Shown here piece after piece: positions 1,746 through 47,985 of a DNA stretch of 47,985 nucleotides. Source of the DNA: a virus; IMG/VR virus record IMGVR_UViG_3300036859_000187, positions 1 through 47,985 of that record; one strand, written 5' to 3'. The position numbers and the translations under genes were made by a program. The notes under the pieces were generated by a model. That model searched no databases. It was not told the DNA's origin and saw only the letters and a list, made by a program, of their open reading frames with translations. How positions within the stretch are numbered: position 1 is the first letter of the stretch; the number at the start of each line of letters is the position of its first letter.

Positions 1746-2120
1746 CTAGTAGTCGCCACTGGAACCGCCTCCGCCGAAGTCTCCACCGCCACCCGAGAAG
1801 TCCGGTGTATCTACCGTTGGAGAACTCGAAGGCGCATCGAACATACCTACACCGACCGCTACAGCAAGCGCGGCCAGAGACGACCACGCAGACGGATCAC
1901 TGTCGGATTCTCGTCTCTGCTCCACCGGCTTTTGGACGGGCGCGACAGGCTGCGGAATCGCTGTCGGCACGATTCCCAAGACAGCCTGTAGCTGACTCAC
2001 GATCTCGCGCCGCAGCGCTATTTGCTCTTTCAGTTGCGCCTCAAGAGAGAGCAGCGCCTGGAGAACTCCGAGTTGCTGATGATAGCATTCTTCTCTCGCG
2101 TCCATTTCCACCTCCATCAA
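1746..2120 (-). CDS. Small coiled-coil protein with Gly-rich tail
   Basis: 124 aa, start overlapping the large-terminase stop by ATGA. Residues about 1-50 are helical and heptad-like (repeated Leu/Gln/Glu), followed by a Pro/Gln-rich linker and a C terminus of GGGGDFGGGGSSGDY. Its position between terminase and portal, with a coupled start, suggests a head-assembly or packaging accessory protein. I do not recognise the family. Its last codons plus stop form the 12-mer GGCGACTACTAG, which reappears in the spacer before the scaffold gene. Confidence 0.7.
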   Translation of the reverse strand: MMEVEMDAREECYHQQLGVLQALLSLEAQLKEQIALRREIVSQLQAVLGIVPTAIPQPVAPVQKPVEQRRESDSDPSAWSSLAALAVAVGVGMFDAPSSSPTVDTPDFSGGGGDFGGGGSSGDY

Positions 2121-3670
2121 TATCCGGTGAGTTGCGAGCGCCCTTCGTTCTGTCCCGGACCGACGAAATCGGCGTCGTCGAGATTATCAGCTAGGTCGAA
2201 TTCCGTCACGCCGGGCGGGAGTTTCCGCTTCTCCTTGGCTAGCTGAGGAGCTACCCAGATCGTCGGCATGTAGCCGGCGGCGTCTAAGAGATCCACCGTC
2301 GGGCCGTTGTCGTAGCTGACCAGCTCGTCCACCATGTCGGTGTGCGTCCGGTGGATGTAGACCCTGCCTTGGCTCGGGTAGCTTCCCCAAAAGGCGATGA
2401 TGCGCTTGTGCTTGGCCCCCCTGGAGAAGTTCTTCTCTAGCTGCCGGATACGCATTTCCGGGTACGTGGCGGCTATCCAGTGGAAGAACGCCTCGTGGCC
2501 GCCGAACGTCTCTATCCCGGCGAACATCGGATTCCATTTCCGGTAAGTTTCGTGCGCCTCGGTCACCACCTCGTAAGGCGTAGACTTCGTGGCCTTGGCC
2601 TCGACGATGATTATGTCGAACGGCTCGGTCAGCGTGGGTGGCGTAATTGCAGCCACTACGTTCGCCGTCCTCGCGTTCTTGGACTCAGGCGACAGGCCCG
2701 CATCTATCACCTGAAAGAAATGGCAGTCCTCGAACTTGACGCGCTTCGAGCCCTGCGGCGTCTCCAAGACGAACGCCGTCTTCCCCTCGTGGTCGGTCGT
2801 CGTATCCCAGTAGCGGAGGAGCGCCGGGTCGAACTTCGATGCTCCGCCCCCGACGACTCTGTTCCGGTACTGGAGCATGAACATCTCGGTCTTCTGCTCT
2901 TCGTGCAGTTGCGTGATGATCTCGGTCGGGTAGCGGGCCGGCCAAGTCGGCCTGCCCTCCTCGTCCTGGATGTCCATGAAGAAGCGATCGACGTTCTTCA
3001 CGTTCTTTATCACCCAGTCGATGACGTCATGCGTGCCCCAGCGCGTCCCGTAGTCGTCGATCTCGGACTTCGACGCATCCACGAGAAGAGACCAGCAGAG
3101 CTTACGCTGGTCGATCGCCTTCTCCATCACGAGCGGAGACTCCCTGGCTTCCTTCCCCACCAGGTCATCGTTCGCGATCCGGTCGTAGTGATTGGAAGTC
3201 GATGCACCGCCGACGCCGATACCCTCGATCGTCGGCTCCGGCCACTTGGCCTCCCGCCGGAGCTCCAACTGCTTCGTGTTCCACCGGACCTTCAGAGGAT
3301 CGGGCACTCGATCAGGATAAAGCGCCCGGTACGTCGGCGAGAGGATGATCTGCTGCATGAGCAGAATCCACTTCGCCGTGTTCCCCTCGATCTCGTTTGC
3401 CAGCAACACCCTCAGATTCGGGTCTGCCGTCACGCGCCGTAAATTCCCGGCGATCGTCCAGCAAGACGTCTTCAGAAAGCCGCGCGGCGCCTGCCCGAGC
3501 TTGAACCTCGACGGCCGCTCCTCGAACTCCGCCATCTTCGCATGCACCTCAGGATCGAAATCGTGAAACCCACAAACGAACTTCCCGAACGCATACGTGC
3601 TCCGGAGACACAGCTCCCTGATCGGAGCCAGGTCTTCCCCGCGTAGCTCGTTCGTCCGCTTCTCAGCCAC
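2117..3670 (-). CDS. terL: Terminase large subunit
   Basis: ATP-driven packaging motor and headful/cos nuclease. 517 aa from a GTG start that overlaps the upstream small gene. The ATPase half shows a Walker A variant APRGFLKTS (residues 61-69) and a Walker B-like segment IANDDLVGKE (165-174). The nuclease half has RNase H-fold acidic positions: D323 in FFQVIDAGLS, E387 in FAGIETFGG and D460/D463 in TVDLLDAAGY. This spacing fits the T7/P22-type two-domain terminase. It lies in an operon with small terminase, HNH and portal. Confidence 0.93.
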   Translation of the reverse strand: MAEKRTNELRGEDLAPIRELCLRSTYAFGKFVCGFHDFDPEVHAKMAEFEERPSRFKLGQAPRGFLKTSCWTIAGNLRRVTADPNLRVLLANEIEGNTAKWILLMQQIILSPTYRALYPDRVPDPLKVRWNTKQLELRREAKWPEPTIEGIGVGGASTSNHYDRIANDDLVGKEARESPLVMEKAIDQRKLCWSLLVDASKSEIDDYGTRWGTHDVIDWVIKNVKNVDRFFMDIQDEEGRPTWPARYPTEIITQLHEEQKTEMFMLQYRNRVVGGGASKFDPALLRYWDTTTDHEGKTAFVLETPQGSKRVKFEDCHFFQVIDAGLSPESKNARTANVVAAITPPTLTEPFDIIIVEAKATKSTPYEVVTEAHETYRKWNPMFAGIETFGGHEAFFHWIAATYPEMRIRQLEKNFSRGAKHKRIIAFWGSYPSQGRVYIHRTHTDMVDELVSYDNGPTVDLLDAAGYMPTIWVAPQLAKEKRKLPPGVTEFDLADNLDDADFVGPGQNEGRSQLTGY

Positions 3671-10668: not shown

Positions 10669-11105
10669 GACGACGCAACAAATTCGGCGCGAGGCGTACC
10701 GCGTATGCCGGCCAGATGTACGACAGTGCCGGCGAGGCTGCGTATGCTCGCCACCTCGATCTCTTGAAGCGCACTGGAAAAATTCTGCGATGGGACCGAG
10801 GCCAATCTCAGATCGTGTTCCACGGCGGCGCTCTGGAGCGGCTGATTCGATTCAAGCCAGACTTCATCGTCACGGAACTCGACGGATCTTCCCACGCGGA
10901 CGACTTCAAGGGTCTGGTGAGACTGAAGCCGAAGATCGGCAAGAGCGGAAAGCTGGGACTTGGCAAGTTGGAGCTCCCAGAAGCATTTCGTCTGCGAGTC
11001 ATCCTCTGGGAAGCCAAGTTTCCAAACCTTCCTGTGCGCGTCGTGGACCAGTACGGCAACGTGAAGTGGACGCTAGATGAAAAACGGAGGGGGGTAGCAG
11101 CATGA
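10665..11105 (+). CDS. DUF1064-family endonuclease (PD-(D/E)XK)
   Basis: 146 aa, GTG start overlapping the preceding stop. NKFGARRT at the N terminus, SAGEAAYARHL with a conserved Glu, RFKPDFIVTELDG and HADDFKG reproduce the DUF1064 pattern: FGA, E, PDF, D-x-K-G. The family is a RecU/T7 endonuclease I-like nuclease thought to resolve recombination intermediates. It fits with the adjacent exonuclease and SSB-like genes as a recombination set. Confidence 0.8.
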   Translation: MRRRNKFGARRTAYAGQMYDSAGEAAYARHLDLLKRTGKILRWDRGQSQIVFHGGALERLIRFKPDFIVTELDGSSHADDFKGLVRLKPKIGKSGKLGLGKLELPEAFRLRVILWEAKFPNLPVRVVDQYGNVKWTLDEKRRGVAA

Positions 11106-12241
11106 CAACTAAGCAGATCAGGGTACACTTCGGCGAGCTCGTTGCGCAGCATGGCCCGTGTCGCTGCGGGTCATGGCGCGATTTGCAAGTCGAGCAACTG
11201 CCCGAGAACACGGAACACTGGTCGCCGGCAAGGTTCGCCGAGGCGCTAGCCGGGAAGCCTCTCCGGTGTGCCGATTGCCGGGGCGTGGTGCGGGTCGCGC
11301 CCGTCGAAGCACCGGCGGTGATCGTGAATCGCCCCGACGCTTCTCCCGTGGTCGCCTATCTGGCGTCTCTGGCGAAGACTTCTCGCCGGGCGATGGCCGA
11401 TGCCCTCGAGATCATCGCGGGCGTGCTCGGACGGCCGAGTGCGCTCGAGGTCGAGTGGCACCGGCTGACCTACCTCGAGACCTCGGCGATCCAGGCGAAG
11501 CTACTCGCGTCGGGGCGCAGTCCCGACTACACGAAGAAGATCATGTGCGCGCTTCGGGGCGTGCTCAGAGCGGCACGGAAGCTCCGGCTGATCTCCCACG
11601 AGCAGTACGCAGCGGCAACCGAGCTCGAGAAGATCCGAGGCTCGAGGCTCCGGAAGATCAAGAACCTGAAGCCTGGCGAACTCGAGTCGCTTCTCGCCGC
11701 CACACGCGACGACGCGAAGCCCATGCGGGCTCTGCGCGACCGGGCTCTTCTGGCAGTGCTTGCCGGCGGGGGCTTCCGGCGATCCGAGGCGGCATCCCTC
11801 TCGACGGATTCATTCGACCGTGAGCGCCGGACGATCACGGTAATCGGCAAGGGCGACAAGGAGCGGGTCGTCCCACTTCCCGAGTGGGCCGCTCGAGCGA
11901 TCATCGAGTTTCTCGATGCCCGTGGGTTCAAAGACGGGCCGCTTCTCTGTCCCGTGTCTCAACCCGGAGTGGCGCTCAGGGAGCCGCTGCACGGCGGGCA
12001 AGCAATTTACATCGTGCTCCGGCGGCTCGGTTGGCGCTCGGGGATCGAGGGCCTCGCGCCTCCGCACGCCTTCCGACGGAGCTACTGCACGCGGCTCCTG
12101 GAGAACGGCGCGGACGTGTTCGCGACTCAGAAACTTCTTGGTCACAGTAGCCCCGATACGACTTTCAAGATGTACGACGAGAGAGGCGTGGATGCTTTGC
12201 AGAAGGCGGCTGATCTTCTGCCGGACCCGGAGAAGGCATGA
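11102..12241 (+). CDS. Tyrosine recombinase 1, XerC/D-like, with N-terminal Cys cluster
   Basis: 379 aa, ATGA overlap upstream. The N terminus has CRCG (about residue 20) and CADC (about 58), a likely zinc ribbon that is unusual for this family. A SAM-like core-binding domain follows (about 80-190). The catalytic domain has a full set: Arg in GGGFRRSEA (about 225), Lys in IGKGDKER (about 250), H-x-x-R in PHAFRRS (about 322), His in LLGHSSPD (about 348) and Tyr in KMYDER (about 358). It sits in the replication/recombination block far from the attP-like site, so dimer resolution or a second integration system are options. Confidence 0.88.
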   Translation: MTTKQIRVHFGELVAQHGPCRCGSWRDLQVEQLPENTEHWSPARFAEALAGKPLRCADCRGVVRVAPVEAPAVIVNRPDASPVVAYLASLAKTSRRAMADALEIIAGVLGRPSALEVEWHRLTYLETSAIQAKLLASGRSPDYTKKIMCALRGVLRAARKLRLISHEQYAAATELEKIRGSRLRKIKNLKPGELESLLAATRDDAKPMRALRDRALLAVLAGGGFRRSEAASLSTDSFDRERRTITVIGKGDKERVVPLPEWAARAIIEFLDARGFKDGPLLCPVSQPGVALREPLHGGQAIYIVLRRLGWRSGIEGLAPPHAFRRSYCTRLLENGADVFATQKLLGHSSPDTTFKMYDERGVDALQKAADLLPDPEKA

Positions 12242-34897: not shown

Positions 34898-37800
34898 CTA
34901 GCTGTTCGACATGACGGCGCCCATCTGCCGCCAGACGACCCCATCGGAGCCGACGGGAACGCAATCATCGGCATCCGTCAGCACCACGTCCACGCCGCCG
35001 CTCGTCTTGAAGTTGGCATTGGCATCGAGCGTGATCGCGTTCGCGGCCGTGTTGCAGACTCGCATGACGCATCCAGCGTTAGCCGCCGCCGGAGCCGTGA
35101 AGGTGTTGGTTGTATCCGTCGTGACGGCCCCAGCCGATGAGACCCGCTTCACGCCCCCGCAGCCGTCTGCCGTGACTGTGTTCCCCGCCGCGATGGTCTG
35201 TCCCGTGGGCACTCCACCGACAGAACCAATGGAGGACAGTGTTGCTCCTGGACTCACCACCGAAGTTCCAAAATAGCCCGTGCGGGGACGGGTTGCGCCG
35301 GAAGCACCAATGTCATTGGTGTTATCTGCTCCGAATAGAAGATCCTCTTTGAAGCTCGTGACACTCTCGTCGCTCAAGCGCATCAGGCCGCTGCCGCCGC
35401 CGCTATCTGTAAATGTGCCGCCATAGGTATTACGCGAAAAGAAGCAGCGCGGTGCGAAGGTTACCAACGACACATTCCCTGTAAAGCGATTCTCTACTGC
35501 CCACACACGACCGCTGCCATTGTTTGGTGTGTCGATTACTACAGTATCTGCCGAAGTGTTGAAGTTTGACCGAAAGAGAACCGTTCCTGCAACAACGGTC
35601 GATCCTGTCGTAGCGTCTATCTTGAATGCAGGAAGAGTGGCGCTTCCGTTCTCAAACCAGAAGTGTTCAAAAGCATTGTAACTCCCGTTTTGGATGAGAA
35701 CACCGCCTCCAGTGTTATTCTGAACTAGGCCACCCAAAAAGGAATTCATGCTCGCATCAGTACCAGCGGATGATGTACCTATTTGGATTGCCTGAGCGGT
35801 CGTGATTCCCGTGTAGAGGCCCACGAAAACATTCTGGTTTGTGGACCCTAAGAGCTTTAGCCCTGTTGCACCTTCCTGAACTCGAAGAGAGTAGAAAGAC
35901 GAGTCTTGGACATTCGTGAGCACTACTTGAGTTCCAAAGCGACCCACAAATACGTCCGCCCAATAAGCGCTTGTGACAAACGTCGTTGCCGACCCCATAG
36001 CGATGCCGGTAGCGGTACCGCTATTAGGACCTACAATCGCCAAGTGACTAATGGATGATTTATGAGCACTCGTGCCTGTAGTCAAAATTGTGATTGCCGT
36101 TCCGGATGTAGCGGTGCTTTGCAGAATCGTCCCCACTATCGCTGGATCGTTCTGCCATCCCTCACCGAGTAGATGCACCGCCTTGGTCACTGTCAACGTC
36201 GCCAACTTATAGGTGCCTCGCGGGAAGAACACCGTACTTCCCTCTGCGGCGCTCGCCAATGCATTACTAATCGGCGAGGTATCATCGGTGATGCCATCCC
36301 CCGTGGCGCCATAGTCCTTTACGTTGATAAATAGACTGTTCCCAGCGGGTGAACAATTCCAGGAGCCGTTGATACGAAACGCCATGGCTCCATTACCGCC
36401 ACTCGCGCAGGGATTGACCGGAAGACAATCACTGCAAAACCGCTGCTCGCCATTGTCGGCAGATCCAAGACTCGCGAACGTGGTCGCCGTGATGCCGAAC
36501 TTCCCCGAGTCTACGTTGACGATATCATTGGCATTCACAGATAAGTCACAGCCGGACGCCAGATCGCCACTGGAATTGCGGCAGACCTTGTAGGCAATCG
36601 TTCCGGAATTGCGGATGCCGGTAGCGAAGTTGTTAGAACTAAGACCGCCGAACTTATACCGGGAGTACATATCCCCGCCCAGGCTGCCGCCATTTATCAT
36701 CTCGAAGACGGCATCGCTGCCTGCGGTGTTGGAAGTATTTTCCGCCCGGTTGAGCACGGAATTTCCACTACGTGAGGCGGAGAATTTGGCCCCAGTGCCA
36801 TCGAGCGTGAACTTCTGCACACCCGAGCCCGACCACGCCTCACCGCCGCTTCCCAAGCTGAACCAACCCGTATTCGTATCGCTGAGCCAACTTCGGCTCG
36901 GCGTTCCCGCGCTACCCGTGGCTGCTCGCTGCGCTCCTCCGCTAGTCATACGGAAGATCGGGGATCCGAACGGAGTCGCACTCGCCCCGATGGTCAGCGG
37001 AAGACCGCTCGTGCCTCCGTCGATTCCGATCGAGTAGGCGTTGCCTCCTGCGTTGGCCGTGTATACGTTCGCAGCCAGTCCCGCCGCCCGGTCCGAGGCC
37101 ACGACCACCTTCGCATCGCTCGCCGCTGCCGCGTTCGTGTTCTCGACGGTGATCGAGTTCGTAACGCCGGAATTTGAGCCGCCGACGTTCAGGGCCTGGA
37201 GCGTCTTGTCCCAAGTGATGTTGGCATCGTTCCCGTTCACTACGGAAGCATCATTGAAAAGCAGGGCCTTGTCGGTGCCTCCGGTGATCGCGGTCGTGCC
37301 GCTCGCGACAGAGCCCGCTCCTGAGCCGCCGTCGATCAGATTGCCGTTGATATCTGCCTTCACGAAGTTGCCGTTCGTGAGGCTCCCCGAGACGGTAGCC
37401 GCCTTGGTCGTGTTGCCCGAGAGCGACGCGATGGCAATTCCGTCGTCCACGAGATTCCCCGAAGCGTCGTACTTGGCGAGATTGCCGCTCGTCAGCGCTC
37501 CGGCGGTCATGGCGACCGTACCGTTTCGGTCAGGGAACGTGGCGGTCCGAGTCGTGCCGGTGCCGATCGTTCCGGCGTCGAGGATGAGCTGCTTCGTCGG
37601 ATCGGCGGAATCCTTCACCAGAGCCGTGTTGTCGGCAAAAGGCGGGAGTCCGGAACCGGAGCCGACCGACGCGCACACCCACGCTCCACCAGCTCTGACC
37701 GCGAACGCTCCCGAACCGCCGCCGCTGCATGGATTCGATCCGAGCACGCAATCCGAGCAGTAGTTGATCGTTCCGTTGGTCGCGGTCGCCGAGAGCTGCG

Positions 37801-37948
37801 CCAGCGTGAGCGAGCCGGCGATAGCCGCGAGGAAAGTCTTCTTTCCCCCGACCGTCTGATCGTTCGTGTCGTCGATCAACTTCACGGCCAGCGCCGAGCC
37901 GACCAGCGTCAGGATGAGTAGCCAGACTAGGAGCGGGATTCTTTTCAT
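34898..37948 (-). CDS. Tailspike/fibre with pectate-lyase-like beta-helix
   Basis: 1016 aa. Begins with a hydrophobic signal-like stretch (RIPLLVWLLILTLVGSALA, residues 3-21), odd for a cytoplasmically assembled tail protein. Two copies of a Cys module CSDC...NPC...W-x-C (residues 63-92 and about 500-534). GNLxKxDxSGNLxD repeats, typical of trimeric fibres, occur between about 155 and 210. From about 540, VKDYGATGDGITDD opens a right-handed beta-helix (pectate-lyase superfamily), followed by GTYKLATLTVTKAVHLLGEG and beta-rich rungs. Likely receptor-binding and polysaccharide-degrading spike. Confidence 0.8.
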   Translation of the reverse strand: MKRIPLLVWLLILTLVGSALAVKLIDDTNDQTVGGKKTFLAAIAGSLTLAQLSATATNGTINYCSDCVLGSNPCSGGGSGAFAVRAGGAWVCASVGSGSGLPPFADNTALVKDSADPTKQLILDAGTIGTGTTRTATFPDRNGTVAMTAGALTSGNLAKYDASGNLVDDGIAIASLSGNTTKAATVSGSLTNGNFVKADINGNLIDGGSGAGSVASGTTAITGGTDKALLFNDASVVNGNDANITWDKTLQALNVGGSNSGVTNSITVENTNAAAASDAKVVVASDRAAGLAANVYTANAGGNAYSIGIDGGTSGLPLTIGASATPFGSPIFRMTSGGAQRAATGSAGTPSRSWLSDTNTGWFSLGSGGEAWSGSGVQKFTLDGTGAKFSASRSGNSVLNRAENTSNTAGSDAVFEMINGGSLGGDMYSRYKFGGLSSNNFATGIRNSGTIAYKVCRNSSGDLASGCDLSVNANDIVNVDSGKFGITATTFASLGSADNGEQRFCSDCLPVNPCASGGNGAMAFRINGSWNCSPAGNSLFINVKDYGATGDGITDDTSPISNALASAAEGSTVFFPRGTYKLATLTVTKAVHLLGEGWQNDPAIVGTILQSTATSGTAITILTTGTSAHKSSISHLAIVGPNSGTATGIAMGSATTFVTSAYWADVFVGRFGTQVVLTNVQDSSFYSLRVQEGATGLKLLGSTNQNVFVGLYTGITTAQAIQIGTSSAGTDASMNSFLGGLVQNNTGGGVLIQNGSYNAFEHFWFENGSATLPAFKIDATTGSTVVAGTVLFRSNFNTSADTVVIDTPNNGSGRVWAVENRFTGNVSLVTFAPRCFFSRNTYGGTFTDSGGGSGLMRLSDESVTSFKEDLLFGADNTNDIGASGATRPRTGYFGTSVVSPGATLSSIGSVGGVPTGQTIAAGNTVTADGCGGVKRVSSAGAVTTDTTNTFTAPAAANAGCVMRVCNTAANAITLDANANFKTSGGVDVVLTDADDCVPVGSDGVVWRQMGAVMSNS

Positions 37949-38310: not shown

Positions 38311-38835
38311 CTATGGGGGGATCACCGGAGCGACGAATTGCTCGTAATTGAGTTGCCCGTCCGAGATCCAGAGCGCATCGGGCTTCGTCCAGTTGGCGAG
38401 ATTCGCAAACGCAAGGTTCTGATCGAATTGCATCTGCCCGTCTTGAATGTAGATCACCCAGCCGCCCGAGATGATGAGGCCGTTCAGAGACGGGTTGCCG
38501 CTCGTGGACGGCGTGTTGAACTCGATGAACGCGCCGAAGGTGAGATCGTAGAGCGTTCCGGTCGCTCGGTCGCGGAGCGTCAGCACGGCATCAGTGGACG
38601 AGAGCCCTTCCGTAGCCGTATTGGTGAGCGGCGCGGGAGTCTTCCGGGTGCCTTCGTAGGGAAAGATCGGCTGCATGTACTCGTCGCGTTGCGGCCCCGC
38701 ATCCCAGCATTTGAAACATTGCCACCCGAACCGGGGATGGAGCCACACGAGGCTCGCCGGGCGGTTCTGGCCGCAAGTCTGACAGCGCGCCCACGCCTCG
38801 CCCGCAACAGGCCACTTATTCCGATACCAGCTCAC
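38311..38835 (-). CDS. Zinc-knuckle containing appendage protein
   Basis: 174 aa. N-terminal CQTCGQNRP then WQCFKCWDAG form a zinc ribbon. The C-terminal part is beta-rich with paired DGQMQFDQ / DGQLNYEQ repeats. The CxxC-containing part resembles short phage linkers that attach fibres; function not certain. Confidence 0.55.
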   Translation of the reverse strand: MSWYRNKWPVAGEAWARCQTCGQNRPASLVWLHPRFGWQCFKCWDAGPQRDEYMQPIFPYEGTRKTPAPLTNTATEGLSSTDAVLTLRDRATGTLYDLTFGAFIEFNTPSTSGNPSLNGLIISGGWVIYIQDGQMQFDQNLAFANLANWTKPDALWISDGQLNYEQFVAPVIPP

Positions 38836-38990
38836 TTCTTCCGTTTGCCTCTGCGCTTATGTCGCGCCTTCGATGCCCTTCCGAATTTCCCCTTGTTGAT
38901 CGACGCATAGAAGACCGACTTGCCTTTTTTGGCCCCATACGATTTTTTCATGCTGCGGAGGATCTTACGTTCCTTCATCGTGAACGGCAT
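38832..38990 (-). CDS. 52-aa very basic protein
   Basis: ATG 38990 with GGGAG upstream; the longer frame overlaps the glycosyltransferase and is rejected. MPFTMKERKILRSMKKSYG then AKKGKSVFYASINKGKFGR: the KxxKILRxMKxxYGxKKGxxVFYASxNKG pattern is a common small phage protein of unknown function. Overlaps the zinc-knuckle gene by ATGA. Confidence 0.65.
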   Translation of the reverse strand: MPFTMKERKILRSMKKSYGAKKGKSVFYASINKGKFGRASKARHKRRGKRKK

Positions 38991-39933
38991 CTTCCGCTCC
39001 CTTCCCATTCGACTTGACGATCTCCCTCTCGCAGCGCCGGAGAAACGCCTTCGCCACGGGCCACACGTCATCCACAGGTAGCCAACTCATCGCCACGTAG
39101 CGCTCGTCCTCGAGCATCTTCGGCGGAGCCCAGGCCGTCGAGAGCTCTTTCTGGTCGCAACGGGGATTGCAGGGCCAGAGCGCCATTGCGGGCTTGTTGT
39201 GCACGCAGCGAATGACGTTCATTCCGGACGAGAAGCCGATGTACGAATCGAGAAGCGCCATCTGCTCGATCATCTGCGGGACGCTCGTCTTCCCGACCGT
39301 GTAGGGAAGGTCGAGATCACACGCGACGGAGTACGTGAGATCGTCCCAGCCGCCGCCGACCATGAGCGGCCGCCAACCGATCGCCATGACGCGCTTCAAG
39401 AAGTCCACCCATTGTTCCCGCCGCCAGGTATCCCAGGCATCCGCGCCCTTGTAGGAAGCGCACGAGATGCCGACCACAGGACCATCCTCCATCGGGTGGC
39501 CCTTCGAGCGCGCATCGCCGCAGATGGCTTTCACCGTCACCTCGGCGGCTCGGTAATGGTCCTCGTCCGAGATGATGTAGTCGTGGTGATACTGCGGCTC
39601 GGGAAGATCAGGGAGCCATTCGGCGAGCGGCCGGCCGTGCTCGAGGTGCTGGTTCGCCTCCAGAAGAACGTAGTCCGTCCCGAGCGACTTGATACGCTCC
39701 CAGGTGGGTTCGGATTTCCAGTCGATCCTCTGCGCGTGCTCGAACGTCAGGAGGAGCTGGTACTGGTCGATCTCGGAATAGTAGCCCTTGAGCCCGAGAG
39801 CTTCGACATAGGGCACGGTGCGCCGAGGTGCGCCGTCTATGATGCCTACGGATTCGATCTCATCGAGAACGGACCACAGGCGCGCGATCACCCATTCGAC
39901 GTCGCCAATGCCGGCCGGGAGGATCAGTTTCAT
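38965..39933 (-). CDS. GT-B fold glycosyltransferase, GT9-like
   Basis: 322 aa from ATG 39933 with GGAGG upstream. Begins MKLILPAGIGDVEWVIARLW, the G-x-G-D N-terminal loop of GT9 heptosyltransferases. The second half has VVGISCASYK, RPLMVGGGWDD and LLDSYIGFSSGMNVIRCVHN, matching the donor-binding GT9 pattern (hGGxxD...SGxxHhA). Likely transfers a sugar onto a phage or cell-surface glycan. Overlaps the GT-A gene by ATGA. Confidence 0.75.
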   Translation of the reverse strand: MKLILPAGIGDVEWVIARLWSVLDEIESVGIIDGAPRRTVPYVEALGLKGYYSEIDQYQLLLTFEHAQRIDWKSEPTWERIKSLGTDYVLLEANQHLEHGRPLAEWLPDLPEPQYHHDYIISDEDHYRAAEVTVKAICGDARSKGHPMEDGPVVGISCASYKGADAWDTWRREQWVDFLKRVMAIGWRPLMVGGGWDDLTYSVACDLDLPYTVGKTSVPQMIEQMALLDSYIGFSSGMNVIRCVHNKPAMALWPCNPRCDQKELSTAWAPPKMLEDERYVAMSWLPVDDVWPVAKAFLRRCEREIVKSNGKGAEDAVHDEGT

Positions 39934-40904
39934 ACGGCCTCCGTCCCGCCGAGCCGCAGAAACACGGACCCGAGCCGTTCCTTCCATCGGTAGATGGACT
40001 CCACCTGGAGCTTCCCGCTCTCTTCCGCCGTCATACCTGTCGCGTCCTTGAATTCGCCGATGTACTTCGGCGTCTCCCCGAAGTGATTCGACTGAGCGCC
40101 GAGGTGCAAATAGCCTCGCCCCGGATACGCGGCGTTCACGTACTTACCGGAGAGCCAGACTTTGTGGTTCCACACGTCGTCCTGAGCCCAATAGCGCGGG
40201 TCGAATCCGCCGAGATCGTCGTAGGCGTCTCGCATGATGAGCATCGCCGCCCCGAACGGGTTCTTGTAGAGGCAGGGAGCTTTCAAGAACGCCGGATTCG
40301 GAGGCACCGCCTCGAAGCGCCACGGCTCGTCGAGACACTGTTGCCACGACTCGAAGCCCCACTGAGGATGCTCGCGGTACGTCTCCCAGCCGGGAATCGC
40401 GAGAGAAGCCAGCGGGATTCCCGCCACACGATAGATGTACGCCCAGCGGAGAGCGTCTATCGTCGTCTCGGGCGCGAGCCACACGTCGTCATTCAGAAAG
40501 AGCGTGTACGCCCAGTTCGTGCAGGCCATGCAGTGAATGGCATTCCCGGCTCGCCCGCTCCACGGGGTCGAATGCGAGAAATCTGCCCCGTGAAACTCCG
40601 CGACTGTCCGATCGAGTACGACTTCGTTCTCATCGATCGCGTCGGACGACACGACCACGGGGAGATTCTCCGGAAGCGACGACAGAAGTACCGAGAGCCG
40701 CCCATTCGAGTGTCCGTTGTGCGACATGATGACTGCGCCGTAGCTGAGTCCCTGGAGAGCGCGCGGGAGCTCCACGGCGGGGCGCCGCTTCGGGAGGTCG
40801 ATCCGGATTACCGGCCCGGAAAGGTTCCACACGCGCTGTCGGCTGCGGACGTGCGAAGGCGCGGATGGGTCTTCCCAGGGATATGAGGAAGTCACAAGAT
40901 CCAT
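39930..40904 (-). CDS. GT-A fold glycosyltransferase (family 2-like)
   Basis: 324 aa from ATG 40904, which overlaps the upstream stop by ATGA. AVIMSHNGHSNGRLSVLLSS opens the nucleotide-sugar domain; YTLFLNDDVWLAPET holds the D-x-D-like metal site; FDPRYWAQDDVWN matches the acceptor ED motif. Predicted to move a sugar from an NDP donor to a glycan or protein. Part of a five-gene sugar cassette. Confidence 0.8.
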   Translation of the reverse strand: MDLVTSSYPWEDPSAPSHVRSRQRVWNLSGPVIRIDLPKRRPAVELPRALQGLSYGAVIMSHNGHSNGRLSVLLSSLPENLPVVVSSDAIDENEVVLDRTVAEFHGADFSHSTPWSGRAGNAIHCMACTNWAYTLFLNDDVWLAPETTIDALRWAYIYRVAGIPLASLAIPGWETYREHPQWGFESWQQCLDEPWRFEAVPPNPAFLKAPCLYKNPFGAAMLIMRDAYDDLGGFDPRYWAQDDVWNHKVWLSGKYVNAAYPGRGYLHLGAQSNHFGETPKYIGEFKDATGMTAEESGKLQVESIYRWKERLGSVFLRLGGTEAV

Positions 40905-41338
40905 CAGACCAGTCCTCGACGCTCCCATATCCACGAATTCGTGGGCATCTCGTAACGTCTGATCGGTTCACCGAGGAAATCCACTGCTGCCCGCGCGATC
41001 TTCGGCACCCAGCAGTCATCCACGCCGATCAACCGGGACGATACGGCCAGAGCGAGCTTCACCTGCTGCTCGGTGATCTCGTAGAGGATAGGCGAATCCA
41101 CTCCATCGTGCGCATCGCAGTAGACGAGATCCCAAGGTCCCGGCGGCAGCTCGCTTGGCCGGAGCGAGAACACGTCCCGCTCGATCACTTCGCCAGCGTG
41201 AGGCAGCCATCGCGGAGCGATATCGACACCGAAGTAACGCTTCGGATGGAGCACCTTGTGCGTGACACCCTCGCCGCTTCCGAACTCCATGATGGACTCA
41301 GGGGCATAGTCTTGCCGGATGGCATCCAGATGGGTCAT
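40904..41338 (-). CDS. Class I SAM-dependent methyltransferase (small)
   Basis: 144 aa from ATG 41338; the longer frame overlaps the neighbour and is rejected. IMEFGSGEGVTHKVL is the SAM-binding E/D-x-G-x-G-x-G loop, FGVDIAP is the acidic loop after beta2, and WDLVYCDAHDGVDS is motif IV. Probably methylates a sugar or glycan intermediate. Overlaps both neighbours by ATGA. Confidence 0.75.
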   Translation of the reverse strand: MTHLDAIRQDYAPESIMEFGSGEGVTHKVLHPKRYFGVDIAPRWLPHAGEVIERDVFSLRPSELPPGPWDLVYCDAHDGVDSPILYEITEQQVKLALAVSSRLIGVDDCWVPKIARAAVDFLGEPIRRYEMPTNSWIWERRGLV

Positions 41339-41946
41339 CGCCGATATCCCCAAAGAGCGACGCCGAACGTGTAACCGAAATGATGAGGCGCAGTCGTGAG
41401 TCCGTCTGTGTACTCGGGCATCTCGCGGAGAAGTCGCCAGCCGACTTCGCCGTAATCGCCACACATGTACGCGCCGTCACGGACGCTCTCCCGATCCCAG
41501 TCGTCCAAGACGAGCACCGCTTCCTTCGCGAGAAACGGCAAGATGAAGTTCATGAAGTGATGCGTCTCGCCCGCAGAATGGTCGCCGTCGTAAAATAAGA
41601 CTCCAACCGAGAACGTAAAATCCTCGCGGCGGAGGTCCTGCCAGCGCTTCGCCATGAAATGCACGTTCGGAAAGAACGCATCGGGGTGCGTGTCGTATTT
41701 CAGGCACGGGTCCACGCCGACGAGCCGCTTCGTCGGGTTCTCGACTGAGGCGCTATCGAGCGTGCGCCCCTCGAGCGTGCCGATCTCGAGGTAGCACTCG
41801 TCTGCCGGCATCTCGCGAACGAGGCCGTTTAGCAGGTGTTCCACCCGCGACGACGAGAAGCCTCTACGCGAGGACAACGCCGGCAGATAGAGCCGTGTAT
41901 CGCGTCTCAGCCTCTCTACGACCAAGTTCGCGGCTGACCATTTCAT
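41335..41946 (-). CDS. Class I SAM-dependent methyltransferase (Methyltransf_24-like)
   Basis: 203 aa. ECYLEIGTLEGRTLDSASVE (E-x-G-x-x-x-G) is motif I, LVGVDPCLKY is the acidic loop, GVLFYDGDHSAGETHHF is motif IV/V (D-G-D-H-S) and AVLVLDDWDRE closes the core; the D-G-D-H-S signature fits sugar O-methyltransferases. Its 5' end overlaps the epimerase by 83 nt, so start choice is not settled; a later start would shorten the overlap. Confidence 0.75.
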   Translation of the reverse strand: MKWSAANLVVERLRRDTRLYLPALSSRRGFSSSRVEHLLNGLVREMPADECYLEIGTLEGRTLDSASVENPTKRLVGVDPCLKYDTHPDAFFPNVHFMAKRWQDLRREDFTFSVGVLFYDGDHSAGETHHFMNFILPFLAKEAVLVLDDWDRESVRDGAYMCGDYGEVGWRLLREMPEYTDGLTTAPHHFGYTFGVALWGYRR

Positions 41947-42931
41947 CTATGACACTCCAGACGCTCTTTCGCGTCCATCCGGGATAGTCACGCTCGAATG
42001 CGCGCGTGTCAGTGACCCACCATGCATGATCTCCGAGCCTCGCTAGCCCGCTCCAATCCACTTCGAAGTCGAAGCCCTTCTGCCGGAGATAGGCCACTGC
42101 TTCACGGATGCTGACCGCGTTCTCCGGGCCGCCTCCCAGGTTGTAGACCGCGCCCTTCGGCTCTGCGGCGTACCGAAGAATGGCGTCAGCTACGTCCTCG
42201 GCCGCGATATTGTCGCGTACCTGGTAGCCCTCGTGTCCGTAGACCATGTAAGTCTTCCCGGAGACGGCGCACTTCACGAGATACCCGAGGAAGCCTTGCA
42301 GCTCGACCGGCGTGCCGGACTTGCCCGTCAAGCAGCCACAGCGGAAGCTCACCGTCGTCATGCCGAACGTCCGGCGGTACTCCTGCACCATGAGATCGGC
42401 CGAGAGCTTCGACACTCCGAATGGCGTATGGAGTGACTGGTCGATATCGAACGACTCGCCGAGGCCGTGTTCGTAGACATCGGCAGCCGTCGGAACGATC
42501 CGCTCGCCCTGAATTGTGAACTCGGCGCTATTGATCGCGTCTCCGTAGACCTTGTTGGTCGAGAGAAAGACGAAAATCGCCTTCGGAGAGAGCTTCCGGG
42601 TGGCTTCCAGCAGCTCGACCGTTCCCATGTAGTTGACTTCGCTGTCCTGGATGACGTGCGAGCGGCTGTAGTCGTGGGAGGGCTGCGAGGCGCAGTGGAC
42701 GATCAAGTCTCTGCCCTGAACGGCAGACAGCCGGATGCGGAAATCATCGCGGAGGACCGTGATGCCCTGCTCGCCGAGCTCCCGGATTCTCCAGTGCACG
42801 CTCCCCTGATGCCCGAACCAACGGCCGCGCTGATCCGAATCTATCCCGACGACGTGGTGCCCGCGCTCGTGTGCCATCTCGGCGAACGTCGAGCCGATGA
42901 GACCTCCCGCTCCGGTGACGAGAATCTTCAT
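41864..42931 (-). CDS. NAD-dependent nucleotide-sugar epimerase (SDR), CDP-tyvelose epimerase-like
   Basis: 355 aa. GAGGLIGSTFAEMA is the Rossmann G-x-x-G-x-x-G loop; VFLSTNKVYGD holds the S-T-N motif. The usual Y-x-x-x-K reads TPFGVSKLSADL, with Phe in place of Tyr. SFRCGCLTGKSG matches the CDP-paratose/tyvelose epimerase-like subgroup, and the Phe may be natural there (recall, not checked). It presumably makes an activated sugar for the adjacent transferases. Promoter not visible in the 57-bp gap upstream (42932-42988). Confidence 0.82.
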   Translation of the reverse strand: MKILVTGAGGLIGSTFAEMAHERGHHVVGIDSDQRGRWFGHQGSVHWRIRELGEQGITVLRDDFRIRLSAVQGRDLIVHCASQPSHDYSRSHVIQDSEVNYMGTVELLEATRKLSPKAIFVFLSTNKVYGDAINSAEFTIQGERIVPTAADVYEHGLGESFDIDQSLHTPFGVSKLSADLMVQEYRRTFGMTTVSFRCGCLTGKSGTPVELQGFLGYLVKCAVSGKTYMVYGHEGYQVRDNIAAEDVADAILRYAAEPKGAVYNLGGGPENAVSIREAVAYLRQKGFDFEVDWSGLARLGDHAWWVTDTRAFERDYPGWTRKSVWSVIDEMVSRELGRREAETRYTALSAGVVLA

Positions 42932-42988: not shown

Positions 42989-43240
42989 CTAGACGGCCGT
43001 CCCGTCTGTTTCGGTATCGGTCGGGTAAGTGGAGGCGCGGCGGAGAACGCCGGCTGCGGTGACGAAGAAATACCAGGTGGTCGTAGCGCCTGCAGCGCTG
43101 ATGCCATCGAGGGCGAGCACGGAGCCCTTACCTGCCGCGCCCTTGGATGCCTGATAGAGAGTTCCTTGCACGCCAGGAGCCTGCGAGCCGAACCGGGTCT
43201 CGCCATCGCTCGGGGTGGTCAATGCATCACGATCGGGCAT
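42989..43240 (-). CDS. Small capsid-accessory protein candidate
   Basis: 83 aa. Gly/Ala/Thr-rich with TTTWYFFVTAAGVLRRAST, a short beta hairpin pattern often seen in small virion proteins encoded beside the major capsid gene. Acidic C terminus. Decoration or head-completion role inferred from position. Confidence 0.55.
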   Translation of the reverse strand: MPDRDALTTPSDGETRFGSQAPGVQGTLYQASKGAAGKGSVLALDGISAAGATTTWYFFVTAAGVLRRASTYPTDTETDGTAV

Positions 43241-43243
43241 GGT

Positions 43244-43348
43244 TCAGTTCCTTCGCTTCTTCGGCTTCGGTCGCTTCTTCGGCTTTCCGTAGCGGCGCAT
43301 CTTCTTCACCTCGTCCCGGAGAGCTTCGGCTGCGCGTTGGTCGATCAC
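43244..43348 (-). CDS. 34-aa Lys/Arg-rich peptide
   Basis: GTG 43348 overlaps the capsid stop (GTGA). A helix (AAEALRDEVKKMRRYG) followed by KPKKRPKPKKRRN, an arginine/lysine-proline tail as in DNA-condensing peptides. Could bind packaged DNA; speculative. A longer ORF in this frame overlapping the capsid gene is a shadow. Confidence 0.45.
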   Translation of the reverse strand: MIDQRAAEALRDEVKKMRRYGKPKKRPKPKKRRN

Positions 43349-44283
43349 GCGCCCAAAGACCCAAATGTTCCGCGCCAATCCCCGTGTCCGACCGCCATTC
43401 GGAAGACGCCCTTCATCTTGAGGTCGCCCGTGTCGAAGTCGGAATCGAATTCCACGTCGATCGGCTTCCGCATCCAGGCGTTGATGTCGTGCCGGTCCTT
43501 CTCGGCGAGCAGGTACCAAGAATCGGAGTCGGTCAGGTAGTGGTCGATGAAGTAGGTGAACGTGCCCTTGACCGGGTTGATCTCGTTGTTGGCCGTGTAC
43601 GGCTTGAGCTGCGATTCGGCGATCTCCTTGGCCGTCCAGACCTGCGCCGGGTTGACAATCAGGACCGCCGGAGAGCGGGGAGCGGGCATGTTCGACTCGT
43701 TCGGAGTCGTCTCGAAGAGATCGGTGGCGATCTCGATTGCCGTGACGGATAGATCGGCGTCCGTGGTCGCCCGATTGGCCGCCGTGCCGCCGCGCTTCAG
43801 CGTATGAGCCGTCGAGAAGAGAGCCAGCGTATCGAACCCGGCGGCGGTGAATCCGGTTCCTCCCGTGGTGCCGAAGCCGGAATTGAAGGGCCGGTGTCCT
43901 TGTACTTCCGCCTGGTGCGCGCCCGCCGCGCCTAGTTCTTTCGAGAGCTTCGCCATGACGCCGTAGAGCTCGTCGTCCATCGCCTCCATCGTGACGCGGC
44001 AACCGAGGCCGAATGTGAATGGGGTATACCGGACGCTCCCCACCTGCTGGATGCGGTCGTACTGGATCGCGTCGCCCTCGGGCTTCGGGACGAAGGTCGA
44101 GAGGGAAGCCACCTGCTCGTCATCGAAGTAGTTCCGGCCGGCCTGCCCGCCTGGGTTCGCTCCGTTGATGACGTTCAGGAACTGGCGGAACTCTTTCGGG
44201 ATGTCCGCGACCGCCGAGAAGTAGACCTTGCGCAGTCCCGGCGCGTAAAGTGCCGGGTTTGTGGTGGTAAGGAGTCTTGCCAT
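43345..44283 (-). CDS. Major capsid protein (HK97-like)
   Basis: 312 aa with AGGAG before the ATG. Pattern includes GLRKVYFSAVADIPKEFRQF, then YFDDEQVASLSTFVPKPEGD and FGLGCRVTMEAMDDEL (E-loop/spine-helix like), a VLIVNPAQVW strand in the A-domain region and a WMRKPIDVEFDSDFDT segment. Overall it matches Mu gpT-like/HK97-fold coat proteins. Placement after scaffold and accessory genes is the usual head module order. Confidence 0.85.
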   Translation of the reverse strand: MARLLTTTNPALYAPGLRKVYFSAVADIPKEFRQFLNVINGANPGGQAGRNYFDDEQVASLSTFVPKPEGDAIQYDRIQQVGSVRYTPFTFGLGCRVTMEAMDDELYGVMAKLSKELGAAGAHQAEVQGHRPFNSGFGTTGGTGFTAAGFDTLALFSTAHTLKRGGTAANRATTDADLSVTAIEIATDLFETTPNESNMPAPRSPAVLIVNPAQVWTAKEIAESQLKPYTANNEINPVKGTFTYFIDHYLTDSDSWYLLAEKDRHDINAWMRKPIDVEFDSDFDTGDLKMKGVFRMAVGHGDWRGTFGSLGA

Positions 44284-46293: not shown

Positions 46294-47262
46294 CTACCGG
46301 CCGGTCAGTGCTCTTCCGACTGCTTCCTGTGCGGCTCGGACGACTGGCGGCAAGTCGCTGCTCGCCATAACGGGAGGGCCGAAAACGTTCGGCCAGATGA
46401 ACACTGCGGCGGCGCTGATTTCCTTGTGCGCCATGGCGAAGCGCCCATAGCTGGTCGCCACTGCTGCCATACCATCCGGACTGATACCGGCCTTTCCGTG
46501 AACATCCGGCGACCACCACCCGTCTACGATCAGGAGCACCATCTGGTCGGGGCGCGAGCGCTTGGAGAGGAGCGTCTGATATGCCGCATTCCACGCCGGG
46601 TCGGTGTTGATATCCGGGGAGCCGTAGTACTGGAGGCCGAGCCAATCGATATCCGCGGGGACTACCAAGTCAGACAAATTGAACCTGCTTTCTGTCATCG
46701 CTTGTGTCGTCGTCGGGAAGGTACGGCGGACCGTCGCTGCGACCATGGAAAGCGTCTGCGGAGAGACGTTCGTCCGCGTCGGCTCATCGCAGATGAAGAA
46801 GGCGTTCACCTGGCGAATGAGGGGCTGTAGCTCGGTCACGAGAGCATCCCACCGAGCAAGGTAATCGCGACGAAGCGTCTTCGGGCCGTGCGGGGCGGCT
46901 TCGAAGAATACTCCCGTGAGAATCACCAGCGAGTCGAGGCCGAGCCCCGCCGCTGTCGAGACGCGAGACACACATGCACCCGGCCCTAGAGCCATGCACT
47001 CGCCAGCGTCTACTGTGCCGAAGCTGGAGTACGGACTAGTGGCTATCGCGGCTGCTTCGCTATCGGCGCCTGCTACGTAGCCGAATTCTACTGTACGGTG
47101 AGATTGGCCGGAGCCGCAGGCTAGTACCAGAAACACGAAAGCCCCCAGGAGAGTCGGATTCCATGAGGGCCTTCGCGCTGGAGTGGAACGATGCGACTCA
47201 TCGGCTAACTGACGCGCCCCGGCTATGTCAAGATGCGCGCTTCTCGGTCCTCGCTTGGTCAA
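46294..47262 (-). CDS. Putative lipoprotein with TIM-barrel hydrolase-like domain
   Basis: 322 aa if TTG 47262 is the start. A hydrophobic stretch ending in a lipobox (LLGAFVFLVLACG, Cys at about residue 49) precedes a barrel-like domain: VNAFFICDEPTRTN (candidate acidic pair), DIDWLGLQYYGSPD, QMVLLIVDGWWSPD and AAAVFIWPNVFGPP, which read as strands of a GH-type TIM barrel. The N terminus before the lipobox is long and the start is uncertain; an out-of-frame ATG at 47201 would give a normal signal length only with a frameshift. Unusual in a virion operon. Confidence 0.6.
   Translation of the reverse strand: MTKRGPRSAHLDIAGARQLADESHRSTPARRPSWNPTLLGAFVFLVLACGSGQSHRTVEFGYVAGADSEAAAIATSPYSSFGTVDAGECMALGPGACVSRVSTAAGLGLDSLVILTGVFFEAAPHGPKTLRRDYLARWDALVTELQPLIRQVNAFFICDEPTRTNVSPQTLSMVAATVRRTFPTTTQAMTESRFNLSDLVVPADIDWLGLQYYGSPDINTDPAWNAAYQTLLSKRSRPDQMVLLIVDGWWSPDVHGKAGISPDGMAAVATSYGRFAMAHKEISAAAVFIWPNVFGPPVMASSDLPPVVRAAQEAVGRALTGR
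47202..47231 (-). promoter_or_regulatory. Candidate leftward promoter-like motif inside the lipoprotein 5' region
   Basis: On the minus strand TTGACA (47231-47226) starts TTGACATAGCCGGGG; TAGCCG (47207-47202) lies 18 bp on. It matches TTGACNTDNCC. An ATG (47201) lies 30 nt from the first T but opens only a 26-aa ORF in another frame. If transcription starts here, the TTG start at 47262 would be upstream of it. Confidence 0.35.
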
Positions 47263-47458: not shown

Positions 47459-47985
47459 CGCCGCGCTCCCGCTCCCCCGCCGAGCATTGCTAGAAGAGGA
47501 CTGTTGCCACTCTTCGAACCTGCCGGCGGCCCTGGGGCGGGGGGACCGCCACCGGCTCCGGCTACTCCAGGCGGCAGTCCCATCATCGGCATTGGCTGAG
47601 GCATGCGTGCCATCTCGGCAAGCGTGTCGCCGAGTAGGGTGGACTCGAGATCGAAGGCGTTATGCGCCTGGTAAATCTTGGATAGGAGCTTGTCCTCGTC
47701 CTGCACGCCCTTGACCATGAGATCCTTCAGCGGCTGCGGAATGTCGGGCCGCATGATCATCGGGGCGATTTGGCCGACCACCATCTGCATGTACTGGTTG
47801 TGAATCTGGTAGAGCTGGATGTTCGACTGTTTCTCGACCTCGCGGTTGACGGCCGCCGTCGAGATGTTGAGCTGGATGCCGATGAGACCGCGAAGCGAGA
47901 CTGGCTGCTCCAGGAGCTGCCGAACGAGAACCGCGTCTTCTTCGTCTAGGACTTGCTCCGGAGATCCCGCTACCTCGGCCGGCGG
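47455..47985 (-). CDS. Portal protein, C-terminal part
   Basis: Continuation of the portal gene from 1-1687. The frame is open from the window end to a TGA at 47455-47457. The visible C-terminal part (QMVVGQIAPMIMRPDIPQPL ... LLGDTLAEMARMPQP) ends in a Pro/Gly/Ala tail, as in P22-type portals. The ATGA overlap with the next gene fixes the 3' end. Bases 47859-47985 repeat bases 1-127. Confidence 0.88.
   Translation of the reverse strand, partial: PPAEVAGSPEQVLDEEDAVLVRQLLEQPVSLRGLIGIQLNISTAAVNREVEKQSNIQLYQIHNQYMQMVVGQIAPMIMRPDIPQPLKDLMVKGVQDEDKLLSKIYQAHNAFDLESTLLGDTLAEMARMPQPMPMMGLPPGVAGAGGGPPAPGPPAGSKSGNSPLLAMLGGGAGARR
47859..47985. repeat. Terminal direct repeat, copy 2 (circular-contig overlap)
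   Basis: Identical to 1-127. Counting both copies would double a piece of the portal gene; remove one copy to obtain the circular genome. Confidence 0.95.

Follow-up and report, generated by a model that had tools for sequence, protein, structure and literature searches.

The five-gene cassette

The window analysed here is the whole 47,985-nt stretch of IMG/VR virus record IMGVR_UViG_3300036859_000187, in which a cassette of five minus-strand open reading frames (ORFs), running from position 42931 to 38965 with head-to-tail overlaps, lies between the capsid and small-decoration genes and a spike gene of pectate-lyase fold. Along that strand, the products are Epi, an extended short-chain dehydrogenase/reductase (SDR) resembling TyvE (41864..42931; PF01370, E 1.4e-33); MT1, a class I S-adenosylmethionine (SAM) methyltransferase of the Methyltransf_24 type (41335..41946; PF13578, E 4.2e-8, above the cutoff); MT2, a small class I SAM methyltransferase of 144 aa (40904..41338), assigned from motifs and sub-threshold matches; GT-A, a GT2-like glycosyltransferase of 324 aa with a DD(V) motif (39930..40904), assigned by distant homology; and GT-B, a GT9 (heptosyltransferase)-like glycosyltransferase of 322 aa (38965..39933), assigned by profile comparison. 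This overlapping arrangement between capsid and tailspike had been described in a first-pass annotation of the DNA, and all five ORFs were confirmed with their start/stop overlaps. The cassette is interpreted below as probably serving the decoration of the phage head.

Epi and MT1 overlap by 83 bp, and the remaining junctions read CGATGA (MT1-MT2), TGATG (MT2-GT-A) and GTATGA (GT-A-GT-B). The start codons of GT-A and GT-B stand in the contexts TG-ATG and GT-ATGA, and the true start of MT2 is likely the ATG in CG-ATGA rather than the GTG of a 186-aa ORF. No sigma-70-like promoter was found on the minus strand between the head genes and the cassette in a scan covering this one promoter type, and the sole terminator-like site on that strand lies inside the spike gene, with none between the head genes and the cassette. 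Moreover, the GC content of the cassette and its GC content at third codon positions were near those of the head genes, and in the cassette proteins no hydrophobic stretch reached transmembrane length.

Conservation with the capsid lineage

Relatives of the window were IMG/VR phages retrieved by searches with the capsid (G001, locus L002; G002, loci L003 and L006), with GT-B (L097 and L100) and with GT-A (L213). The order Epi-MT1-GT-A-GT-B beside the capsid gene was found in the window and in four other phages, at capsid identities of 38-70%. In particular, G001 and G002 were 66-67% identical to the window in the capsid, 73-76% in GT-A, 60% in GT-B, 57-58% in MT1 and 55% in Epi. For L097, the values were 70% (capsid), 63% (Epi), 59% (MT1), 64% (GT-A) and 63% (GT-B), and this phage had an extra 422-aa gene before Epi that appeared ATP-grasp-like by eye and gave no Pfam or PHROG match. 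The most distant bearer, L213 (capsid 38%, Epi 47%, MT1 58%, GT-A 55%, GT-B 34%), showed the same order straight after a gene resembling g83, the 83-aa small head/decoration-like gene of the window. Furthermore, the fragment L100 (capsid 37%) carried GT-B immediately behind the capsid and a g83-like gene, and L103 (capsid 40%) combined the capsid and a g83-like gene with a methyltransferase of the Methyltransf_11 type and a homologue of GT-A. Within the capsid tree, one set of 13 rows with 99/99 support contained the bearers of the cassette together with L100 and L103, and L111 and L113 joined this set at 90/76; the placement of L213, on a long branch, was uncertain.

Between G001 and G002, the dN/dS ratios (Nei-Gojobori) were 0.09 for Epi, 0.16 for MT1, 0.03 for GT-A, 0.04 for part of GT-B and 0.01 for the capsid, so that the cassette is under purifying selection, and this, together with the same order in five phages, argues against a chance arrangement. 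The spike had no match in G001 or G002 and was largely unrelated in L097, with local spike matches that covered only 62 aa and 110 aa. Since the spike differs among cassette-bearing phages, the cassette goes with the head and not with receptor binding; the survey of related genomes for co-occurrence that the first-pass annotation had suggested thus showed a cassette tracking the capsid lineage, not the spike.

Predicted enzymes

The Epi profile matched two CDP-tyvelose 2-epimerases of the Protein Data Bank (PDB) over its whole length (9rl0, E 6e-48; 1orr, E 1e-43). The catalytic triad of TaTyvE consists of Thr124, Tyr164 and Lys168, and Asn125 in the TNK segment orients the substrate (PMC13098431). 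At sequence level, the extended SDR fold, the NAD motif and the TNK segment (T-N-K at 125-127) were recognized in Epi, as was the catalytic Lys (Lys175), but the Tyr of YxxxK was not, Phe171 standing in its place across five aligned phage copies. Epi is therefore like TyvE (1orr, 9rl0; PMC13098431) in its full-length homology, TNK segment and catalytic Lys, and differs from it at the position of Tyr164. The earlier designation as an NAD epimerase fits the family (PF01370, TyvE-like SDR), with the caveat that Phe stands at the position of the catalytic Tyr.

The same Phe occupied the catalytic Tyr position in 79 of 80 bacterial Epi homologues (37-48% identical). A large bacterial family of such Phe-for-Tyr TyvE-like SDRs was observed (genome_contigs loci L017-L096), with a Tyr-type paralogue adjoining in some loci, and no characterised member of this Tyr-less family was found in this analysis. 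Next to the bacterial homologues, glycosyltransferases and methyltransferases were identified by eye, along with a second SDR of the Tyr type, an exporter resembling Wzm and a protein resembling WecG/TagA, and such glycan-type neighbours point to a putative role of the family in surface-glycan synthesis. No CDP-sugar pathway was recognized in the phage. A further homologue (41%) appeared in a different phage (L008:6966-12564), where it adjoins glycosyltransferase-like genes and an SDR resembling UDP-xylose synthase and lies close to an apparently intein-bearing terminase.

For GT-A, there was no direct Pfam match; its L103 homologue (28-29% identical) matched PF00535 at E 0.001, below the curated cut-off. 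The residues DD 139-140, D242 and H267 were invariant in five phages, and GT-A identity in five other phages was 76, 75, 64, 55 and 29%. GT-B, with homologues in L097, L100 and L213, aligned with GT9 in the C-terminal donor domain (hhalign, 89% over 131 columns), its L097 copy matched PF01075 (GT9) at E 0.19, below the cut-off, and the N-terminal GIGD and the GFSSG motif were invariant. Neither protein had a tblastn match in 50,697 phage genomes or a credible hit in PDB profile searches, and for GT-A nothing convincing was found in GTDB genomes or in ten bacterial genomes, which gave one match at E 0.06. AlphaFold models, built with few relatives, had a mean predicted local distance difference test score of 33 for GT-A and 37 for GT-B.

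MT1, whose family suggests a probable sugar O-methyltransferase, was 57-61% identical in four relatives; its sole matches in cultured phages were to Synechococcus phages (33%), and the PDB profile search returned nothing credible. MT2 carries the motifs EFGSGEG and CDAH and gave sub-threshold methyltransferase matches (PF08241, E 0.19; PF08242, E 0.08 for the L002 copy). It is an optional part of the cassette, found in the window and G001 only (40% identical) and not in G002, L097 or L213.

Genomic setting

Bases 1-127 of the window recur at 47859-47985 as a 127-bp terminal direct repeat. Near the contig junction, a terminase-like ORF (2117-3670) and a reading frame resembling a portal gene are arranged in the manner seen in the relatives. 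Because of this end repeat and layout, the window is probably a complete genome of ~47.9 kb. In annotated relatives, the genes around that of the capsid encode a terminase, a portal or head-to-tail connector, GroES, a tail adaptor and a tail spike. This setting indicates a podovirus-type phage, which may be temperate given an integrase gene at 11102-12241.

The major capsid protein (43345..44283, minus strand; 312 aa) is of the Phage_capsid_4 type (PF25209, E 3.7e-9; PHROG 4523, head). Behind it, g83 (42989..43240, minus strand) is retained directly after the capsid in L100, L103 and L213, its position in L213 being occupied by the gene at 2351-2602. It aligned with the same-place genes of L103 and L100, both of which were in the hidden Markov model, so that their scores are not independent. 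A possible candidate for the glycan acceptor is g83. A short basic ORF lies between g83 and the capsid, with further head genes upstream.

Downstream of the cassette, the order is a Lys/Arg-rich ORF of ~52 aa (MPFTMKERKILRSMKKSYG...; 38832..38990, minus strand) that overlaps the end of GT-B, g174, g118 and the spike. A basic ORF also follows GT-B in G002 (L006, 5728-5895), and the zinc-ribbon-like g174 (38311..38835, minus strand) stands behind the cassette in relatives, being 41-44% identical in G001, G002 and L097. The tailspike (34898..37948, minus strand; PF12708, Pect-lyase_RHGA_epim, E 3e-13) begins with a Sec-signal-like segment. Such N-termini (e.g. MKRIPLLVWLLILTLVGSALA) were seen on spike-position or other virion-region proteins in the window (34898-37948), L097:12156, L106:1290, L213:7595, L111 and L113, and are odd for virion parts put together in the cytoplasm. 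Elsewhere, between portal and scaffold-like genes, the window has a lipoprotein-like gene (46294-47262) with an LVLACGS lipobox and, by eye, a glycosidase-type barrel; merely an 83-aa gene is found at that spot in L097.

Probable virion glycosylation and alternative explanations

On balance, the cassette is probably a late-expressed system that glycosylates and methylates a head-shell protein during assembly. Epi, together with host enzymes, would act on a nucleotide-sugar of the host and convert it, probably at C-2; the glycosyltransferases GT-A and GT-B, both presumably cytoplasmic, would assemble a short sugar chain on a protein of the head shell (the capsid or a small decoration protein) while the particle is being built; and MT1, plus MT2 in some phages, would O-methylate the sugar or sugars, with particle shielding or surface adaptation as the likely use. 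Inference covers which protein accepts the glycan, which sugar is used and where it is methylated, as well as the sequence of reactions, the late timing of expression and the benefit. Virion decoration, as put forward in the first-pass annotation, is the best-supported reading, given the tracking of the capsid lineage, the soluble enzymes, the lack of an isolating promoter or terminator and the Corndog-type precedent, and it still faces a less probable host-surface rival. A head-shell target is favoured over receptor-linked conversion because the cassette accompanies the capsid while the spike changes, which is circumstantial.

Several observations weigh against this interpretation. Gene position does not by itself establish the target, and the typical role of Epi homologues and of GT9-like enzymes is in the surface glycans of bacteria. 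Moreover, GT-B of G002 is broken near its start by an HNH endonuclease gene (L006:4097-4760), which follows ~13 GT-B codons and precedes a divergent duplicate of the beginning of GT-B; Rfam gave no intron match at this insertion. L104 and L107, within the 13-row capsid set, show no cassette-type genes, so that the cassette is patchy and not essential for the capsid type. Finally, the post-capsid site of L111 (8832-10423) and L113 (8824-10409) encodes a membrane protein that resembles O-antigen ligases and polymerases and matches Wzy_C above the Pfam cutoff.

The foremost alternative, though an unlikely one, is conversion of the host surface (O-antigen or capsule), in which a lipid-linked or finished host glycan would be remodelled, blocking superinfection or self-adsorption of the progeny. 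The occurrence of Epi's bacterial family in surface-polysaccharide clusters, the GT9-like fold of GT-B shared with lipopolysaccharide (LPS) heptosyltransferases, the Wzy_C gene found behind the capsid in L111 and L113 and the integrase encoded in the window are all consistent with it. However, the window cassette is without a membrane glycosyltransferase, flippase or polymerase, it lies within the head operon with no promoter of its own found, and it shows no covariation with the spike, which receptor-linked conversion would lead one to expect.

Glycan attachment to the tailspike or to a different tail protein, in place of the head shell, is improbable. The spike is only ~1 kb downstream of the cassette, and PMC11600133 reports that the tail tube of cluster O phages is modified too, but the cassette was kept in G001 and G002, where the spike is unrelated, and in L097, where it is largely so, and glycan genes stand directly behind the pair of capsid and small gene in L100, L103 and L213. 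A still fainter chance is given to Epi being a non-catalytic pseudo-enzyme in a cassette that merely transfers and methylates ordinary host sugars, as might be supposed from the Phe found in all phage copies at Tyr164 of TyvE (PMC13098431). The Phe is shared with nearly all the bacterial homologues, and the TNK segment and Lys are kept in the phage copies, which argues for a maintained subfamily and not decay; the low dN/dS ratio of Epi also counts against it. Phage glycosyltransferases can act on modified bases, but hypermodification of DNA or nucleotides through glycosyl- and methyl-transfer is very improbable and was set aside, as no base hydroxymethylase, hypermodification gene or other base-modifying partner was recognized adjoining the cassette, the Epi and MT1 families are sugar-type and the genes are in the head operon.

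Beyond glycosylation of the head shell by this cassette, deeper relatives carry partial or other glycan genes at the post-capsid site (a methyltransferase with a GT2 gene, GT-B alone or a Wzy_C ligase). It could be speculated, at long odds, that one podovirus capsid clade has, just after its capsid and small decoration genes, an exchangeable 'shell-coating' locus with a cytoplasmic and a periplasmic mode. In some members, a Tyr-less TyvE-type enzyme would make a methylated unusual sugar that is attached in the cytoplasm. In L111 and L113, where the Wzy_C gene is preceded by a g83-like gene with a Sec-signal-like N-terminus, a signal-peptide decoration protein may be glycosylated in the periplasm by the phage-encoded Wzy_C-like oligosaccharyltransferase.

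The cassette rides with the capsid over deep divergence, so that one can test whether the tailoring of shells with sugars is more general among phages. Furthermore, Epi gives a defined means of assaying the activity of the widespread Tyr-less, TyvE-like SDRs that bacteria carry in surface-glycan clusters.

Comparison with known systems

GT-B resembles GT9 heptosyltransferases in its C-terminal donor domain and N-terminal GIGD motif, but it has FSSGMN where GT9 has a DSGPMH-type donor-site motif and is without an LPS operon context. Gtr serotype-conversion cassettes are glycan modification genes of temperate phages, and the window cassette shares with them its phage-borne glycan modification genes. 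Unlike them, it sits in the head operon; a GtrA-like flippase, a GtrB-like bactoprenol transferase and a membrane Gtr are all lacking, and no transmembrane segment occurs in its five products.

The closest likeness is to cluster O (Corndog-type) mycobacteriophages, where an O-methyltransferase and three glycosyltransferases are encoded between the portal and the capsid protease (PMC4351075). According to PMC11600133 and PMC11256854, both citing Freeman et al. 2023, such enzymes modify the tail tube as well as the capsid and reduce recognition by antibodies; in mycobacteriophages, the glycosylation enzymes were present in infected cells and not in virions, and virion glycosylation was reported (PMC4351075, PMC11600133, PMC11256854). 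As in Corndog (gp35-38) and cluster F1 (Che8), the window has an O-methyltransferase and glycosyltransferases in tandem within the virion structural operon, adjoining head genes, the glycosyltransferase calls being by distant homology. In the first 20 kb of Che8, no glycosyltransferase was found beside the capsid, and in an F1 phage the glycosyltransferases are near the 3' end (PMC11256854). These mycobacteriophages belong to an unrelated lineage and differ in being actinobacterial siphoviruses; in Corndog, the genes stand between portal and capsid protease, and no SDR is named. The likeness is one of gene architecture, not of established enzyme homology to Corndog. The first-pass annotation had expected a phage-made methylated glycan to be novel; it would be new for this lineage, but its kind is known from cluster O (PMC4351075, PMC11600133). 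If the proposed head glycosylation is true, phage-made methylated virion glycans, so far reported from siphoviruses of actinobacteria, would also occur in an uncultured capsid clade of podovirus-like phages, with an enzyme set that differs from the mycobacteriophage one and includes a nucleotide-sugar SDR.

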